A DNA stretch of 39,760 nt from a virus: IMG/VR virus record IMGVR_UViG_3300042465_004089, positions 1 through 39,760 of that record; one strand, 5' to 3'. Positions 7,668 to 28,172 of the stretch are shown piece by piece; position 1 is the stretch's first letter, and the number at the start of each line of letters is the position of its first letter. The translations under genes were made by a program, and so were the position numbers. The notes beneath the pieces were generated by a model. That model was not told the DNA's origin and did no database searches. It saw only the letters and a program-made list of their open reading frames with translations.

Positions 7668-7846
7668 TGTACCTCCGTTGGATTCTCTAGTTTAAATTTA
7701 ACTGCTTTATAGTAAGTGAAATAACCGTTATGGCTCATACTCTTAGCTTTACGTTTAGCATCACCTACTCTGGAGTAAAACTGACTTACTCGCTTGTTTG
7801 TGTTGGTGTCAATAACACAAGATACTTCTTCAAACATACTTGACAT
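7664..7846 (-). CDS. Hypothetical protein, 60 aa
   Basis: Small basic protein (SRVGDAKRKAKSMSHNGYFT) with an excellent ribosome site AAAGGAGGTAAT. Its stop overlaps the start of the next gene. It is the first gene after the terminator at 7887-7908. No family recognised. Confidence 0.75.
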   Translation of the reverse strand: MSSMFEEVSCVIDTNTNKRVSQFYSRVGDAKRKAKSMSHNGYFTYYKAVKFKLENPTEVQ

Positions 7847-7948: not shown

Positions 7949-8866
7949 TTAGACAAGTAAACTCTTACGTTTTTCTTTAGTGTTAATTGCTGTCTTACTA
8001 CGATGGCGAGAACCACAATCATTACACTCATATTCTTCGTACTCACAAGCAGGAGTATACACTGAATTACCTGTCTTAACAATATCTTCACTATTGCATA
8101 CAGGGCAAATAACAGTAGTATCTTTTGTGAAAATAGCAGAATTAACTGGTAGATTAGAATGCGGAGCTAAACGATGATAAACAGCATAAAGTAAGTCAAC
8201 ATCCTGAATATTGTATTCGAGCATTTCTTTTAGACTATCTTCACTTCCAGCTAAACATCCAATCCAAGTGTTAATACCGCTATGGTCAGCTTTATCACCT
8301 TCACCTAATGCTACACCAAGAGAACCTAGTCGATTACTCTGAAAGCGCATCTGTTTAGCTAACTTAAGAGTATCGATTGTTTTTACTTTCTTCATTGGTA
8401 GCATTCTATTAATAACCATTCTGCTCTTAATTGCAGGTAGATCAAAACGATCAATATTATGACCAATCATAACATCTGCAGTTTCAGCTAGAGCGTAAAG
8501 AACAGCACACAACCTGCTGTCATCGCCAATCTGAGCTTCTTGTGAACTCAAAGCTAACCCCTGAGTTACTGCAGAGTGCATCCAACGCCACGAAATACTA
8601 AGGATAACTCCACCTTCACGTAGGATATTATCTTGGCTTAAATTAGCCTTAAAACGTTTAAATGTAACTGCAATGTCAGGTGACGTTTCAATGTCGATGA
8701 ATAAATATTTAGCATTAGGTTTCTTACTGTATTCAACAGCAGTTCTATTATATGTTTCGTTAACTGAACTTTTAGATACTCCTAGAATTTCAGCAATTCG
8801 TCGTGAGGACCAACCTTTGTTTTTTAGCTCGACAATTTTAGATTGAATTTTAGTTGAATGTTTCAT
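7949..8866 (-). CDS. DnaQ-like 3'-5' exonuclease with N-terminal HTH and C-terminal zinc ribbon
   Basis: 305 aa in three parts. Residues 8-40 form a helix-turn-helix (KGWSSRRIAEILGVSKSSV). Residues 53-230 are a DEDD exonuclease fold: LFIDIETSP (D58, E60), MIGHNIDRFDLP and EYNIQDVDLLYAVYHRL as Exo I-III. The C-terminus holds a Cys4 ribbon, CPVC then CNDC. Likely a 3'-5' nuclease acting in replication or recombination, with two DNA-contacting modules. It directly follows the endonuclease VII gene. Confidence 0.88.
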   Translation of the reverse strand: MKHSTKIQSKIVELKNKGWSSRRIAEILGVSKSSVNETYNRTAVEYSKKPNAKYLFIDIETSPDIAVTFKRFKANLSQDNILREGGVILSISWRWMHSAVTQGLALSSQEAQIGDDSRLCAVLYALAETADVMIGHNIDRFDLPAIKSRMVINRMLPMKKVKTIDTLKLAKQMRFQSNRLGSLGVALGEGDKADHSGINTWIGCLAGSEDSLKEMLEYNIQDVDLLYAVYHRLAPHSNLPVNSAIFTKDTTVICPVCNSEDIVKTGNSVYTPACEYEEYECNDCGSRHRSKTAINTKEKRKSLLV

Positions 8867-9372
8867 TAAGTTTCCTTTACGGTTTTGATTAGATTGAGAA
8901 TAGTAATATAACCATGCTCTCGTTTTAGTATAGCTTTATTTAGTAGCTTTCGACGTTCTTTTAAGTTAGAACCATGTGGTTGACCTAGTTGATTCAATAA
9001 CAAATTCTGTTGTGTTACTTTTAGTTTATTAAACTCAACAATAATTCTCTTAACCCAACCGGGATGACGCCACCGTCTATCCACAGGTTTGTCTAAGTAG
9101 TCTGCACATTGTCTAAGGAAGTCTGACAACTTACCATTATACCAATGATTCAAGTATCTTACTTGTAGGTTCTCAAGTTTACCTAAAAGCATATTAGCAT
9201 TACCATTGAGAGCACCACGTACTAACTGTTCGTCATCATGAGCGTGATCTACGTGTGTTCTAGCTGCAGATAAATCCTGACCTGATATCGCGCATTTGTT
9301 CTGTTGTTCTTTTAGAAGTAATGCGCGTACTCTAGCTACGTCTTTACTGTTGTATAAGTCTTCTGTTTTAAT
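8866..9372 (-). CDS. Endonuclease VII-like Holliday-junction resolvase, apparent AUU start
   Basis: 168 aa. Only an ATT at 9372-9370 can serve as start. The frame is open from the TGA of the upstream gene (9385), contains no ATG, GTG or TTG before the core, and ATT lies 5 bases after AAAGGAGG. The first canonical in-frame ATG (9192) would cut off the catalytic region. Landmarks are VDHAHDD (41-47), LVRGALNGNANMLLGKLEN (50-68) and FLRQCADYL, matching phage recombination endonuclease VII (DHDH...RGxL...N..LGxxEN). Three of four zinc cysteines are absent (CAIS, RGALNGNAN). Such enzymes resolve branched DNA before packaging. Confidence 0.82.
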   Translation of the reverse strand: MKTEDLYNSKDVARVRALLLKEQQNKCAISGQDLSAARTHVDHAHDDEQLVRGALNGNANMLLGKLENLQVRYLNHWYNGKLSDFLRQCADYLDKPVDRRWRHPGWVKRIIVEFNKLKVTQQNLLLNQLGQPHGSNLKERRKLLNKAILKREHGYITILNLIKTVKET

Positions 9373-9384
9373 TGCAGCCTCCTT

Positions 9385-10356
9385 TCATAGTTTTATCCCG
9401 TAATTATTCAAGAATTTATCTAAGTTTAACATGTCATCCTCTGTAGTCATCATCCTAGCACAACAGAAGTATAACTGCAACATCCTACGGTAGTCAGCAA
9501 TATGCATAGAACCGTCCCAAGCAGTATAAGTGAACTCGGAAGGATACCACACCCTGTATTGATCAATAACCGCTTGTAGAGCTTCCTGATGCGTTTTACA
9601 GGTACTCAGTATTTTATATGCAGCTTGTTTACCAAATCTAACGTTAGCTAGTTCACAGGGTTTGTAATCGTCACTTGGGTCGCCATTTAAAAACTGGAAG
9701 CAGAACCAAATGAAACCTTCACCTTTAACTTCCTTATCTGTTTGCCATAGGCTACCAAAATCAGGTACTAATCTAACTTCTGGATTATCTTGAGTATAGT
9801 CATAAAGACTCAATCCTGAGTAAGCAGCAGAGTCTTTGTCAACAGAAATAAGAATAGGTGTGTAACCTTTACCTAAGTACTTATAACCTTGGATGATTAC
9901 ATCATCATCACATTCTCTGTTCTTAGCAACAATACTTGGGTAGTTCTTGTAGAGATAAGTTTTAGCTTCACGTAACCATGTTGGCCTCAGAGTCCCAATT
10001 CTAGAACCTTTGTATTTTGAAGGTAGTGGTAGATCATCCCTCAGATTAGTCAAACCCTGAATACACATAAGCATTTCATCTGCGAATAAATCAGAGTTAA
10101 TCTTTTCAATCTGATTCTTCATGATCTTAATACACTTAGATAACTCACCCGGTACTAACTTATCGGTGAATTCGTAGTTTTCTTTTACGAATTCCATTCC
10201 CTTGTTCTTTAGTACTTCCTTAAATTCTGTTCTGGTGTTGAACTCTTTAGTTCTACCAGATGGTAAATGTTTAACTTCTACTAATCGTTTGTCTACGACT
10301 GCAGCAGCACAGTAAGCTATGGCATCTGAATCGTATATTGTAATAATTTTACTCAT
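9385..10356 (-). CDS. 5'-3' exonuclease / flap endonuclease-like (PIN fold)
   Basis: 323 aa from ATG 10356, which overlaps the upstream stop (ATGA); a longer start at 10374 lies inside the upstream gene. Acidic metal-binding clusters appear in order: YDSDAIAY near the N-terminus, NRECDDDVII, LISVDKDSAAY and FLNGDPSDDYKP. This is the arrangement of T7 gp6/T5 D15-type phage exonucleases, which remove RNA primers and resect DNA 5' ends. It lies beside the resolvase and other replication genes. Confidence 0.85.
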   Translation of the reverse strand: MSKIITIYDSDAIAYCAAAVVDKRLVEVKHLPSGRTKEFNTRTEFKEVLKNKGMEFVKENYEFTDKLVPGELSKCIKIMKNQIEKINSDLFADEMLMCIQGLTNLRDDLPLPSKYKGSRIGTLRPTWLREAKTYLYKNYPSIVAKNRECDDDVIIQGYKYLGKGYTPILISVDKDSAAYSGLSLYDYTQDNPEVRLVPDFGSLWQTDKEVKGEGFIWFCFQFLNGDPSDDYKPCELANVRFGKQAAYKILSTCKTHQEALQAVIDQYRVWYPSEFTYTAWDGSMHIADYRRMLQLYFCCARMMTTEDDMLNLDKFLNNYGIKL

Positions 10357-11275: not shown

Positions 11276-11824
11276 TTATAGAGTAAGTGAAGATTGAATT
11301 ATAGCAGATTTCTTTCTGTTTTCTGCATTTATTTTACGATGTTCTTTACCGTGACATTCTGTGCATAACCACATTACGTCTAACCAATGTTCTTCTAGAT
11401 ATGACCAATGGTGACCTTCGATTTCACAATCAGTTTTACCACAGGCAGAGCAGATAGTTGGACGAATAAGTTTACCGTCACGTAGTGCATTAGAAAGTTC
11501 ACATTGAGCTTTTCTTTTGATCTTGTTTTTAAGTGCCCACTCAGATTTACTTCTATCTACTTTGGCTTTAAATTCTGGATCAGTTGCATACTTTAATTTA
11601 GTCTTAGCTGAAAATTTACTAGAACGCTCAGAACCCGGATAACTTCGGTTTCTATCGTATTCATTATAATACTCAACTTTATCTAATCTGTTTAGAATAA
11701 CATCTTTCTTGTTGCATTCCTTGCACTTATTAACGTGACCGTCAGCCATCTTATAATGTTTATAAAATGCAGAGAGGGGTTTAATCTCTCCGCACTTAAA
11801 GCACTTTTTATGCTTTTCCTCCAT
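11276..11824 (-). CDS. HNH endonuclease with N-terminal zinc finger
   Basis: 182 aa. Residues 8-38 hold two CxxC pairs (CFKCGEIKP, CKECNKK), a small zinc finger also seen in other phage HNH proteins. The C-terminal half is an HNH module: CSACGKTDCEIEGHHWSYLE and LCTECHGKEHRK, with two zinc-binding pairs and the HH motif. Likely a free-standing homing-type or accessory nuclease. It sits between ssb and the membrane protein gene, 2 bases from the ssb stop. Confidence 0.88.
   Translation of the reverse strand: MEEKHKKCFKCGEIKPLSAFYKHYKMADGHVNKCKECNKKDVILNRLDKVEYYNEYDRNRSYPGSERSSKFSAKTKLKYATDPEFKAKVDRSKSEWALKNKIKRKAQCELSNALRDGKLIRPTICSACGKTDCEIEGHHWSYLEEHWLDVMWLCTECHGKEHRKINAENRKKSAIIQSSLTL
11298..11308 (-). 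promoter_or_regulatory. Extended -10 box before the small membrane protein
   Basis: The reverse strand reads TCTGCTATAAT (TGn plus a perfect TATAAT) inside the 3' end of the HNH gene, about 35 bases before the ATG at 11263. No convincing -35. Confidence 0.5.
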
Positions 11825-12728: not shown

Positions 12729-12806
12729 TGGTGCGTCTGGAGGGATTCGAACCCCCATGATGGACAATGTAGAAGACTGTTAGCTTATCCGTTAGCTCAC
12801 AGACGC
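12729..12806 (-). tRNA. tRNA-Arg (anticodon UCU)
   Basis: The reverse strand folds as a cloverleaf: acceptor GCGTCTG with CAGACGC, D stem AGCT/AGCT, anticodon stem ACAGT/ATTGT with loop CTTCTAC (anticodon TCT), 7-nt variable loop, T stem GGGGG/CCCTC with loop TTCGAAT, discriminator A and encoded CCA (12729-12731). It reads AGA codons, which are common in this AT-rich genome. An extended -10 promoter lies 14 bases upstream. Confidence 0.93.
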
Positions 12807-18668: not shown

Positions 18669-19577
18669 TTATTTTCCATGACGGTCTGTATAACCGGCAC
18701 CTTGTTCATTTACTTCATCAATTAATTTATCTCTGGTTTCTATAGCTAGTTTAAGAGCTAAATCATCGCCGTATTTCACACAAGAGAAACCTCTTGTTTT
18801 CCATTTACCGTTGAACACCACAGACACCGTATATCTTCTAATTAATGTACCTCTGTGATTAAAACCTTCATAATAAGATATACCAGTATAACCTGTATTG
18901 TTATTCTTATTCATTGTTCTATTCCTACCGTTTAAAGCAGGAACTACAATTCTTAGATTTACAATTCTGTTGTCTGATCTATTCCCATTAATGTGGTCTA
19001 TCCACAGTCCTTTTGGTATTTTACCATTGTGTAAAAACCAAATAATTCTGTGTATTTTATAACTGTGTCCAAGACCATGTAATTTCCAATAACCATCTTG
19101 TTCGTCTAATGAACCAACAACATCACCATTGGTTATTTTCGATGATTTAGAAGCTTTTGAAATCCAGCGCAAACCACTTGGACTAGATTCATCATACAGT
19201 AGATAGTCTTTTAATCTATCTGAATATTTTTGATCCAATTTTAAGTAAGTCTCTCTTAGATAAAGATTTTCTATACTAGCATTTAATTTGTTATGATCTT
19301 TAAAATAAACAGAATAACCATCTGGAATTGGACCGTTATGCATTATCCATATAATTTTAGGAATTGAATATAAATTCTTTTCATAATTCAAACTCAAATA
19401 ATTTTCTGAATTTACCCCACCAGCTTGATTGTTATTTGAACGATTTACCAAGGAGTTGTTCCTAGCTTTCCTTTTGTGTTTCCACCTTAGAAAACTTGCA
19501 GACTCCTTGGTATATTCAAATATTTCTGACCATTTTATTGAATTTAATCTTTCATTAGATTTTGTATAATTTGGCAT
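18669..19577 (-). CDS. HNH homing endonuclease with AP2 DNA-binding domain
   Basis: 302 aa from ATG 19577 (AAGGA upstream). The catalytic part is YKIHRIIWFLHNGKIPKG followed by IDHINGNRSDNRIVNLR, the HNH nuclease signature. NNTGYTGISYYEG and FNGKWKTRGFSCVKYG form the AP2-like domain near the C-terminus. An earlier IIWIMHNGPIPDG segment (about 75-87) suggests a degenerate second HNH-like unit. The gene has its own promoter and terminator and separates primase-helicase from polymerase, the pattern of a free-standing mobile gene. Confidence 0.92.
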   Translation of the reverse strand: MPNYTKSNERLNSIKWSEIFEYTKESASFLRWKHKRKARNNSLVNRSNNNQAGGVNSENYLSLNYEKNLYSIPKIIWIMHNGPIPDGYSVYFKDHNKLNASIENLYLRETYLKLDQKYSDRLKDYLLYDESSPSGLRWISKASKSSKITNGDVVGSLDEQDGYWKLHGLGHSYKIHRIIWFLHNGKIPKGLWIDHINGNRSDNRIVNLRIVVPALNGRNRTMNKNNNTGYTGISYYEGFNHRGTLIRRYTVSVVFNGKWKTRGFSCVKYGDDLALKLAIETRDKLIDEVNEQGAGYTDRHGK

Positions 19578-19607
19578 TGATTTCCTTATAATAGTTATGA
19601 ATATGTG

Positions 19608-19618
19608 ATTATAACACA
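19608..19618 (-). promoter_or_regulatory. Extended -10 promoter of the HNH-AP2 gene
   Basis: The reverse strand reads TGTGTTATAAT, one mismatch from TGTGGTATAAT, 31 bases before the endonuclease ATG and just after the primase-helicase stop. Confidence 0.6.
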
Positions 19619-19639
19619 ACTACTATATTTAAGTCAATA

Positions 19640-21376
19640 CTAAAAATTAATTTCTCGACCACTTTCATTCAAATAATCATCCAAGTCATGAAGAGTGTGT
19701 TTCTCATTATCATAGTAATACATTCCAGCGATACCTGTCTTTCCAGTCCAGCGAATCTTAGTTGCCTTCATTGTAGTGGTGTTGCGTTCTATATCATCAG
19801 TTGCTTCTTTGTTTCTACTGAAAAGTAAATTACACGCAGCACTTTTATATAAACCGCTATTTCCCATTAAGTCTTCTTCATGTAGATCAGCACCAGCAGA
19901 GCCTGCTTTCTGACCACCACCAGTTTTTCTGGTGTGACATACGTTCAAGAATGTAACCATGTGAGATTTTACCATACCTTTTTGCCAAGACATAAAGTTC
20001 TCTTGTTCGTCCAATGGCAATGCCGAAATGACATCGTGTATGGGATCGAGCACAATAACTTTACAACCACAGGAGATAATCAAATTCTCAATAGCTGATT
20101 GGATATTTTCAACATCACCATCACGATCATCTACTAAATAGAAACGAGGATTACCATCTTTATCATTAAACAGATCATACTCTTTTTTCTTTACTTCTTC
20201 ACTATCTAATAACTCCATAGCAGTGTCCATGTCAAGTAGTTCAATCTTCTTGGATATGTGTCGTGATAATAACTTAATACCATACTGACCACTAGTACTT
20301 TCTAACGTAACAACTCCTACTTTGTGTGGACTATTGAATAACATGTAATAAAGTATTTCGTCGGTTATTGTGCTTTTGCCTGTACCACTGGCACTACCAA
20401 GGTTTACGATTCGGCCTAAGGGTATACCACCAGCCATCATGTCCTGTAATTTATGCATGAATGGAGGTAATGGGATTTTCTCTGTGTTCATTTCTGAACG
20501 CATTTGAGAAGAAATCTGATTACTCGCTACTACACCGACAGGTACATACAATTCAGCGTTATAGAAGTCCTGAATATACTCTTTCTGTTTACCTTTTTCA
20601 AGATACTCATTATGATCCTTGTATCGAAGTTTCATAATCTTTACTTTACTTTTCGGCAATACCTTGATAGCTTCAGCTTGAGCATCCTGCCCAGCTTTAT
20701 CTGAATCGAATGCACAGATGACGAAATCAAATGTGTTGAAAAATTCATATTGAGCGGCAATTTGCTTCTTTGATTGTGCTCCAGTAGTAGGACTAACTAC
20801 AGCAATTTCAAAGTCAGAACCTTTACTAGTATTGTATTCCTTCATGATCTGGTAAGCTGACAAAGCACAGAGCTCTCCCTCTGCGAGAATTACATACTTA
20901 CCACCACGATTAAACCTGAACTGACCGAACAACTGGCAATCTGCACCTGTACGACCGATACTACGGAAATCCTTTGGTACTGACCTGATCTTATAACCTG
21001 TCAATTGACCGTCTTGTGTACATGGATAGAACTGTTCGTTTACTTCACCGTCATCATCGAACTTATGACGAACAAGAAAATACTTAGTGGTTTCATCTGA
21101 TAATCCACGGAACTCATTACATTCTGTTGTAGCGTCTTTCTTAATCTCTTGTGCTACCTCTGGATCAATTACTGGTTTACTTGGTTTAACTGGTGTTTCA
21201 TCTTGCATAACTTCCTTTCGTTTTCTTGGTTTCTTTTCGTTTAGTAGTTCTTTGTATTCTTCGGATAGTGTAGCGTGCTGACAAACCCAACAATAAGTAC
21301 TGTTGTCATCATACACTGCTTTACCATCAGAACTACCACATTCTTCACAATTTGTGTGTCGGATAAATGCAGCTAT
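19640..21376 (-). CDS. Primase-helicase, T7 gp4-like, apparent AUA start
   Basis: 578 aa if started at ATA 21376-21374, six bases after AAAGGAG. No ATG, GTG or TTG lies between the upstream in-frame TAA and the zinc finger. The first canonical codon is GTG 21316, which removes two zinc ligands. From ATA the protein has C10/C13 (CEECGSSDG) and C29/C32 (CWVC), spaced CX2CX15CX2C exactly as in T7 gp4. A TOPRIM primase domain follows (LAEGELC, FDSDKAG), then a RecA-like helicase (GSASGTGKST Walker A, K334; VIVLDPIHDV Walker B). It unwinds the fork and primes the lagging strand. Confidence 0.93.
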   Translation of the reverse strand: MAAFIRHTNCEECGSSDGKAVYDDNSTYCWVCQHATLSEEYKELLNEKKPRKRKEVMQDETPVKPSKPVIDPEVAQEIKKDATTECNEFRGLSDETTKYFLVRHKFDDDGEVNEQFYPCTQDGQLTGYKIRSVPKDFRSIGRTGADCQLFGQFRFNRGGKYVILAEGELCALSAYQIMKEYNTSKGSDFEIAVVSPTTGAQSKKQIAAQYEFFNTFDFVICAFDSDKAGQDAQAEAIKVLPKSKVKIMKLRYKDHNEYLEKGKQKEYIQDFYNAELYVPVGVVASNQISSQMRSEMNTEKIPLPPFMHKLQDMMAGGIPLGRIVNLGSASGTGKSTITDEILYYMLFNSPHKVGVVTLESTSGQYGIKLLSRHISKKIELLDMDTAMELLDSEEVKKKEYDLFNDKDGNPRFYLVDDRDGDVENIQSAIENLIISCGCKVIVLDPIHDVISALPLDEQENFMSWQKGMVKSHMVTFLNVCHTRKTGGGQKAGSAGADLHEEDLMGNSGLYKSAACNLLFSRNKEATDDIERNTTTMKATKIRWTGKTGIAGMYYYDNEKHTLHDLDDYLNESGREINF

Positions 21377-27500: not shown

Positions 27501-28154
27501 TTATTCCTTAGAAAAACCATAGAGTTCTATTTCAGCTTTTTCTCTAGCTTTACAAGCATCTTCGAAGTTATCAAAAATACCGAGATATTTGTTGACACCA
27601 TATTGAGAAATAGCAGCTATATATTTACCTCGTCTTTTATTAAAATGAACTCCAGTTTTTCCTGACTTATTACTTGATAATAAGCGTTTATTAAATCCTT
27701 GTTCAGTGGTATCAGACCATTTACAGTTTTCTTTACAGTAATTTGAATTGACATCAATTCTATCCAATTGTAGACCTTCTGGTCTTTTACCCATATCTTT
27801 AAGAAAATTATTGAAATCTTTCCATTCTTCTATATAGGATATACCTCTCATTCCATAAAATTCGTACGAAGGGTTATTAGGATTATCACATCTTGCCTTC
27901 ATTCCAGACCAAATTATATACTCTGTTGAATTAGTTAAACCATGAGTTTTGTGTTTAGTAGGAGCTACTTCTATACTTAGACAGCCACATGATTTTGTGT
28001 TTAATCTAACTAAAGAATCACTTGCAACTACACAATAATTACCACATTCACAAATACATTTCCACGCAACTCTTCCATATTTAGTATTTGCACTTCGTTC
28101 CAATACTGTTAATCTTGAAAATTTTTGTCCTGTTATATCTAACAATTTTACCAT
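27501..28154 (-). CDS. Putative homing endonuclease / DNA-binding protein with zinc region and AP2 domain
   Basis: 217 aa from ATG 28154 (GGAG six bases upstream). LDITGQKFSRLTVLERSANT, CICECGNYCVV and TKSCGCLSIE form the N-terminal zinc region; IIWSGMKARCDNPNNPSYEF then YGMRGISYIEEW and DRIDVNSNYCKENCKW form the HNH-like core of this phage family. SGKTGVHFNKRRGKYIAAIS and KYLGIFDNFEDACKARE form a C-terminal AP2-like domain. Its AT-rich coding differs from the adjacent deaminases, consistent with insertion as a mobile gene. Confidence 0.85.
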   Translation of the reverse strand: MVKLLDITGQKFSRLTVLERSANTKYGRVAWKCICECGNYCVVASDSLVRLNTKSCGCLSIEVAPTKHKTHGLTNSTEYIIWSGMKARCDNPNNPSYEFYGMRGISYIEEWKDFNNFLKDMGKRPEGLQLDRIDVNSNYCKENCKWSDTTEQGFNKRLLSSNKSGKTGVHFNKRRGKYIAAISQYGVNKYLGIFDNFEDACKAREKAEIELYGFSKE

Positions 28155-28172
28155 CTCTATCTCCAATTAATT

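Follow-up and report, generated by a model that had tools for sequence, protein, structure and literature searches.

Translation from AUU is cited in PMC5472188 and PMC13009471 for Escherichia coli infC, which encodes initiation factor 3 (IF3), and for pcnB, and limits expression there; both are cellular genes with experimentally proven starts, infC is autoregulated by IF3, and IF3 represses starts of the AUU type (PMC5472188). In Staphylococcus aureus cvfC1 (AUU) and ccpN (AUA), mapped by Ribo-Ret and reporters, the near-cognate codon lies behind an unusually strong Shine-Dalgarno sequence (SD), and in poor medium AUU and AUA starts with extended SDs reach about 10% of what AUG yields (PMC13009471). 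AUU starts also make functional proteins in Yersinia pestis (RcsD-Hpt; PMC10191623) and in Borrelia burgdorferi, where annotation of pncA/BBE22 from the next canonical start removes a catalytic residue and the AUU form, proven by genetics, biochemistry and structure, restores the enzyme (PMC13398362). The subject of this analysis is an endonuclease VII (EndoVII)-like gene whose reading frame appears to open at ATT in a viral DNA of 39,760 nt (IMG/VR record IMGVR_UViG_3300042465_004089, positions 1 to 39,760, here called the window). It resembles the S. aureus genes in the strength of its SD and pncA in what canonical annotation would take from it, and limited expression is likewise predicted; unlike any of these, it is a phage nuclease known from its sequence.

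Literature searches on AUU starts in phages brought up no example from a phage. Gene 26 of T4 reportedly has an AUU start (Nivinskas et al. 1992), an instance of AUU initiation in a phage, but at an internal start that yields a smaller peptide.

Start region and product of the EndoVII-like gene

A preliminary description of this DNA, made from its letters, had proposed AUU initiation on the grounds that the first canonical start leaves only the C-terminal two thirds of the protein. That start is the ATG at codon 61, which retains 108 of 168 codons; from the upstream stop down to this codon (9192) the frame contains no ATG, GTG or TTG, and above the ATT it is open for 4 codons only, up to the TGA of the exonuclease gene, as described. 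The minus strand at this junction reads ...GGG ATA AAA CTA TGA AAGGAGG CTGCA ATT AAA ACA GAA GAC...: the exonuclease stop (9387-9385) runs into the SD, AAAGGAGG, and the spacer CTGCA (9377-9373) puts the ATT 5 nt beyond it, within the 5-9 nt taken as the range for bacterial AUU starts with a strong SD; this is the arrangement that had been reported. With both strands counted, 0.06% of positions reach the SD's energy of -11.6 kcal/mol, which places it among the strongest of the window; of the gene starts listed, only that at 7846 (-12.2) exceeds it. RNA folding around the start is ordinary (z 0.28 in the window, 0.68 in the related contig L002, for which see below), and no structure-based control is therefore proposed. 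An initiator-like phage tRNA was sought as well, and the single tRNA gene that the window holds is a tRNA-Arg(tct) (12729-12806, minus strand). A tRNA-Met is carried by DC31.

Read from ATT, the protein matches PF02945 (33.2 bits, the curated cut-off being 23.6; E=4.8e-8) and phrog_423 (E=4.3e-19), and profile comparison also pairs it with T4 endonuclease VII, the product of gene 49, to which it is 19% identical. Residues D42, H43, H45 and N60 are invariant in 28 homologues and align to T4 EndoVII, with which the D-H-x-H and N positions are shared; R52 is likewise invariant in the homologue alignments. All of these lie before 9192, where the preliminary description had located the catalytic region, so that reading from the ATG, as automatic annotation would, deletes every catalytic residue. 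The 168-residue model has a pLDDT of 94.6 and resembles T4 EndoVII in fold: Foldseek aligns it with 1en7, 2qnf and 1e7l (E about 8e-5 to 9e-5, probability 1.00, TM 0.54-0.63), and T4 EndoVII is its only PDB match at E <0.001. With the catalytic residues, the ATG-only reading drops helix 9-22 and strands 39-43 and 51-56. The four zinc positions, two CxxC pairs in T4 EndoVII, are mostly without cysteine in the window protein, where only C27 is retained, and for this reason it is filed as EndoVII-like and not as a T4-type zinc-binding enzyme. Residues 23-60 (9193-9306, minus strand) show a family that lacks most of the T4 zinc cysteines and keeps the catalytic residues and the fold.

AUU initiation fits these observations best, those on the relatives of the gene included, and we regard it as very probable that a tailed phage here makes, by translation from AUU, a functional, zinc-cysteine-poor EndoVII-like nuclease for branched DNA. 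The very strong and well-spaced SD would place initiator tRNA on the AUU, which that tRNA would decode at lowered efficiency, and would partly offset the weakness of the codon. Initiation is probably aided by ribosomes that terminate 12 nt upstream, on the stop of the exonuclease gene, and could likewise be fed by those finishing the mini open reading frame (mini-ORF) MKGGCN*, the TAA of which overlaps the ATT. Full-length enzyme would be expected in a low but real amount, its output being sensitive to the IF3 of the host.

Relatives, rival readings and the origin of the AUU

The closest comparison is with L002, a contig that resembles the window from position 9392 downward, just above the SD, at 96.8% identity over 1.5 kb. 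L002 retains GAAAGGAGGCTGCAATTAAAACAG, the SD-spacer-ATT unit standing unchanged behind a different upstream gene, Lar-like and in another frame. L003, 90% identical, has ATG ACT GAA GAC against ATT AAA ACA GAA GAC in the window, its ATG one codon downstream of the ATT position, and the ATG of homologues lies at that position, give or take a few codons. A credible canonical in-frame start is found at 52 of 54 family loci, the exceptions being the window and the L002 contig (as locus L010); in L056 and L057, where an ATG at -87 nt opens a longer frame that includes the AAGGAGG, no near-cognate start was counted. A search for the SD-ATT pattern gave no match in genome_contigs and one contig in viral_contigs; with the exonuclease as query no relatives were found in viral_contigs, and a direct search of the records did find relatives. 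The ATT, whose conservation was proposed earlier as a check, is kept in L002, and the other relatives have ATG or another canonical start. Since it is conserved in one other known contig, and since G006 and G007 (the closest kin by primase) and a second EndoVII-like gene in L002 all use ATG, the AUU is a lineage-specific and probably recent start.

In favour of initiation at AUU, codons 3-63 evolve as coding sequence (nonsynonymous rate, dN, 0.007 and synonymous rate, dS, 0.08 against L002; dN 0.066 and dS 0.20 against L003), on few changes. Several points weigh against it. These dN and dS counts are small, and the EndoVII ATT occurs in two contigs only, the window and L002. In L002 an in-frame TTG, without an SD (-0.5), lies 13 codons upstream of the ATT; the second EndoVII-like gene there (1063-1554), separated from the first by a DNA methyltransferase-like frame, is ATG-started, and the AUU copy could therefore be dispensable; and the L002 junction may be an assembly chimera.

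The ATG-started paralogue of L002, and an arrangement upstream of EndoVII that differs in the closest relatives, would suit a gene that has lost its start by recombination and is decaying, expressed hardly or not at all. We consider this unlikely: the frame is intact, all catalytic residues are kept, dN is below dS, no second copy was found in the window, and one of the window's strongest SDs would be left unexplained. A +1 frameshift into the EndoVII frame, from the mini-ORF (ATG-AAA-GGA-GGC-TGC-AAT-TAA) in the window or from the Lar gene in L002, with the SD stimulating as in prfB, could exploit the SD-like AGGAGG that precedes the AAT of AAT-TAA by 4 nt; the KGGCN* tails of Lar and mini-ORF do share a frame in both contigs. 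Yet established pairing rules make the shift from AAU to AUU a poor tRNA re-pairing, the context for initiation upstream is not alike in the two contigs, a Lar-EndoVII fusion would be unexpected, and the 5-nt distance from SD to ATT is normal for initiation; we hold frameshifting to be quite unlikely. The exonuclease and EndoVII frames of the window are identical and separated by the TGA alone, as readthrough to an exonuclease-EndoVII fusion would have it, but in relatives the two genes stay separate, each with its own ATG, and a strong, correctly spaced SD would serve no purpose. In L002, moreover, only 45 nt of open EndoVII frame precede the ATT. The survival of the SD-ATT unit behind a different upstream gene argues against readthrough and frameshifting alike, and makes the former very improbable. 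An ordinary start concealed by sequencing or assembly error, for which a single base change (ATT from ATG) would be enough, deserves hardly any credence, because the separate contig L002 carries the same ATT below different upstream DNA.

Initiation at AUU, which is preferred to all of these, has a plausible history. The junction of exonuclease and EndoVII takes up inserted genes: it holds an HNH gene in L003, a Lar-like gene in L002 and only the mini-ORF in the window. The HNH endonuclease-like gene of L003 (148-690) overlaps both of its neighbours. The Lar-like gene of L002 sits behind a C-terminal fragment of the exonuclease, and at 2426-2739 of the same contig a remnant resembling the end of EndoVII and the start of DnaQ is followed by an exonuclease C-terminal fragment; these look like traces of repeated gene exchange at the junction. 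The L002 Lar-like gene ends in the same KGGCN* as the mini-ORF, a tail that was not found in relatives of that gene. The simplest account would be that insertion or exchange at the junction displaced the native ATG in the lineage of the window, and that the strong SD and the AUU took over.

A second near-cognate start, in the primase/helicase gene

Alone, the EndoVII AUU would be one more AUU-started gene, like infC and pcnB; the pattern in the primase is more interesting. Two genes of known family, EndoVII and the primase/helicase, came out of a window-wide scan for near-cognate codons that follow a strong SD and have no canonical start close by (near-cognate matches in the control contig G010 and a CTG match in G006 are excluded from the counts). 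The first canonical start of the primase/helicase, GTG 21316, cuts a zinc finger that the ATA start restores, and the match to phrog_239 goes from E=3.9e-161 when read from the GTG to 2e-167 when read from AUA; to judge from this, the gene most likely begins at AUA. Across 69 full-length loci, which include near-copies and represent 58 different proteins, the corresponding start codon, located by means of alignment and SD, is ATG in 38, TTG in 23, ATT in 4, and ATA and GTG in 2 each. A tree from which the N-terminal 30 residues were omitted, built by a quick method that makes its support provisional and with L085 on a long branch, unites the window (ATA), L084 (ATT; this is the L002 contig), L086 (ATT) and L085 (ATA) in one supported group. 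The three relatives in that group are 68-96% identical to the window protein, and AUU and AUA are its only starts; L096 and L097, both ATT, fall outside it, and over the whole tree the class of start codon changes at least 20 times. The EndoVII AUU is thus not isolated, because the primase/helicase of the same genome behaves alike across a deeper group of relatives.

According to works cited in PMC9198812, gene 4 of T7 has a 56-kDa short component, and a 7-kDa region is needed for priming and dispensable for helicase. T7 gene 4A/4B has a conserved internal ATG with an SD after the zinc finger, permitting full-length and short forms, and the primase/helicase loci compared here are laid out likewise. 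An internal in-frame ATG lies just past the zinc finger, around codons 55-71, in 67 of the 69 loci, at homologous places in L083-L155 (L095 and L100 lack it). AAAGGA or AAGGGA occurs within the 21 nt before it in 35 of 40 unique sequences; for codons generally the figure is 0.6%, and of 873 other in-frame ATGs 5 have the motif. For the lysine encoded at the motif AAG is used 38 times in 45, compared with 243 times in 756 for lysines elsewhere that precede a codon starting with G, the counts coming from related and not independent sequences; because of this enrichment the DNA motif, and not the protein alone, seems to be kept. The difference from T7 is that the upstream start of these loci is often UUG, AUU, AUA or GUG, and their short form is predicted. 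A weak upstream start would decrease the ratio of full-length to short primase/helicase, and might in this way tune it.

In G007 the gene for the ribonucleotide reductase small subunit (PF00268; L177 3910-4929, contig G007:43910) has a frame that opens at ATT behind the SD AGGAG, its first canonical start appearing 10 codons on.

A broader proposal is tentative, and we would put it somewhat below an even chance: that a group of tailed phages keeps AUU and AUA starts in genes of DNA metabolism as selected control. The primase/helicase has AUU or AUA in four of four members, varying but never AUG, with a 4B-like internal AUG kept, and the weak start would set the proportion of full-length to helicase-only protein; EndoVII in the window and L002, and the G007 ribonucleotide reductase small subunit, would belong to the same regime. 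If this is true, it would be a rare example of AUU/AUA starts kept over substantial divergence in replication genes, and would link a weak start to the long-known choice between full-length and short forms of T7-type primase-helicases. Recurrence within one genome, and in a group of relatives, increases the interest of such starts. Gene callers limited to ATG, GTG and TTG would deliver a nuclease without its active site and a primase whose zinc finger is broken; any control based on the start codon would escape them too.

Feature coordinates and neighbouring genes

Table 1. Features of the window at the EndoVII-like and primase/helicase loci
Feature	Position	Strand	Basis or remark
Exonuclease gene directly upstream, ATG 10356, in the EndoVII frame	9385..10356	-	phrog_107, E=6.2e-44
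Mini-ORF MKGGCN*	9368..9388	-	its ATG overlaps the exonuclease stop, its TAA the ATT
Shine-Dalgarno sequence AAAGGAGG	9378..9385	-	duplex energy -11.6 kcal/mol; ATT follows after 5 nt
ATT, probable start codon	9370..9372	-	where homologues start; L003 has its ATG one codon downstream
EndoVII-like gene read from AUU, 168 codons and stop	8866..9372	-	PF02945, phrog_423, model compared with T4 EndoVII
Catalytic stretch D42-H43-x-H45 ... R52-G53 ... N60, codons 42-60	9193..9249	-	alignments, T4 EndoVII
First canonical ATG, codon 61	9190..9192	-	SD merely -2.8 kcal/mol; all catalytic residues lost
DnaQ-like DNA polymerase exonuclease subunit, downstream	7949..8866	-	phrog_403, E=2.7e-73
Primase/helicase gene read from AUA, 578 codons	19640..21376	-	phrog_239
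ATA, probable primase/helicase start	21374..21376	-	SD AAAGGAG 21389-21383, 6-nt spacer
Internal in-frame ATG, codon 57, candidate T7 4B-like short-form start	21206..21208	-	AAAGGA 21218-21213

The ATG of the DnaQ-like gene shares one base with the EndoVII stop (8868-8866). Three more HNH/endonuclease-like genes lie among the replication genes of the window, at 11276-11824, 18669-19619 and 27501-28166 (minus strand).
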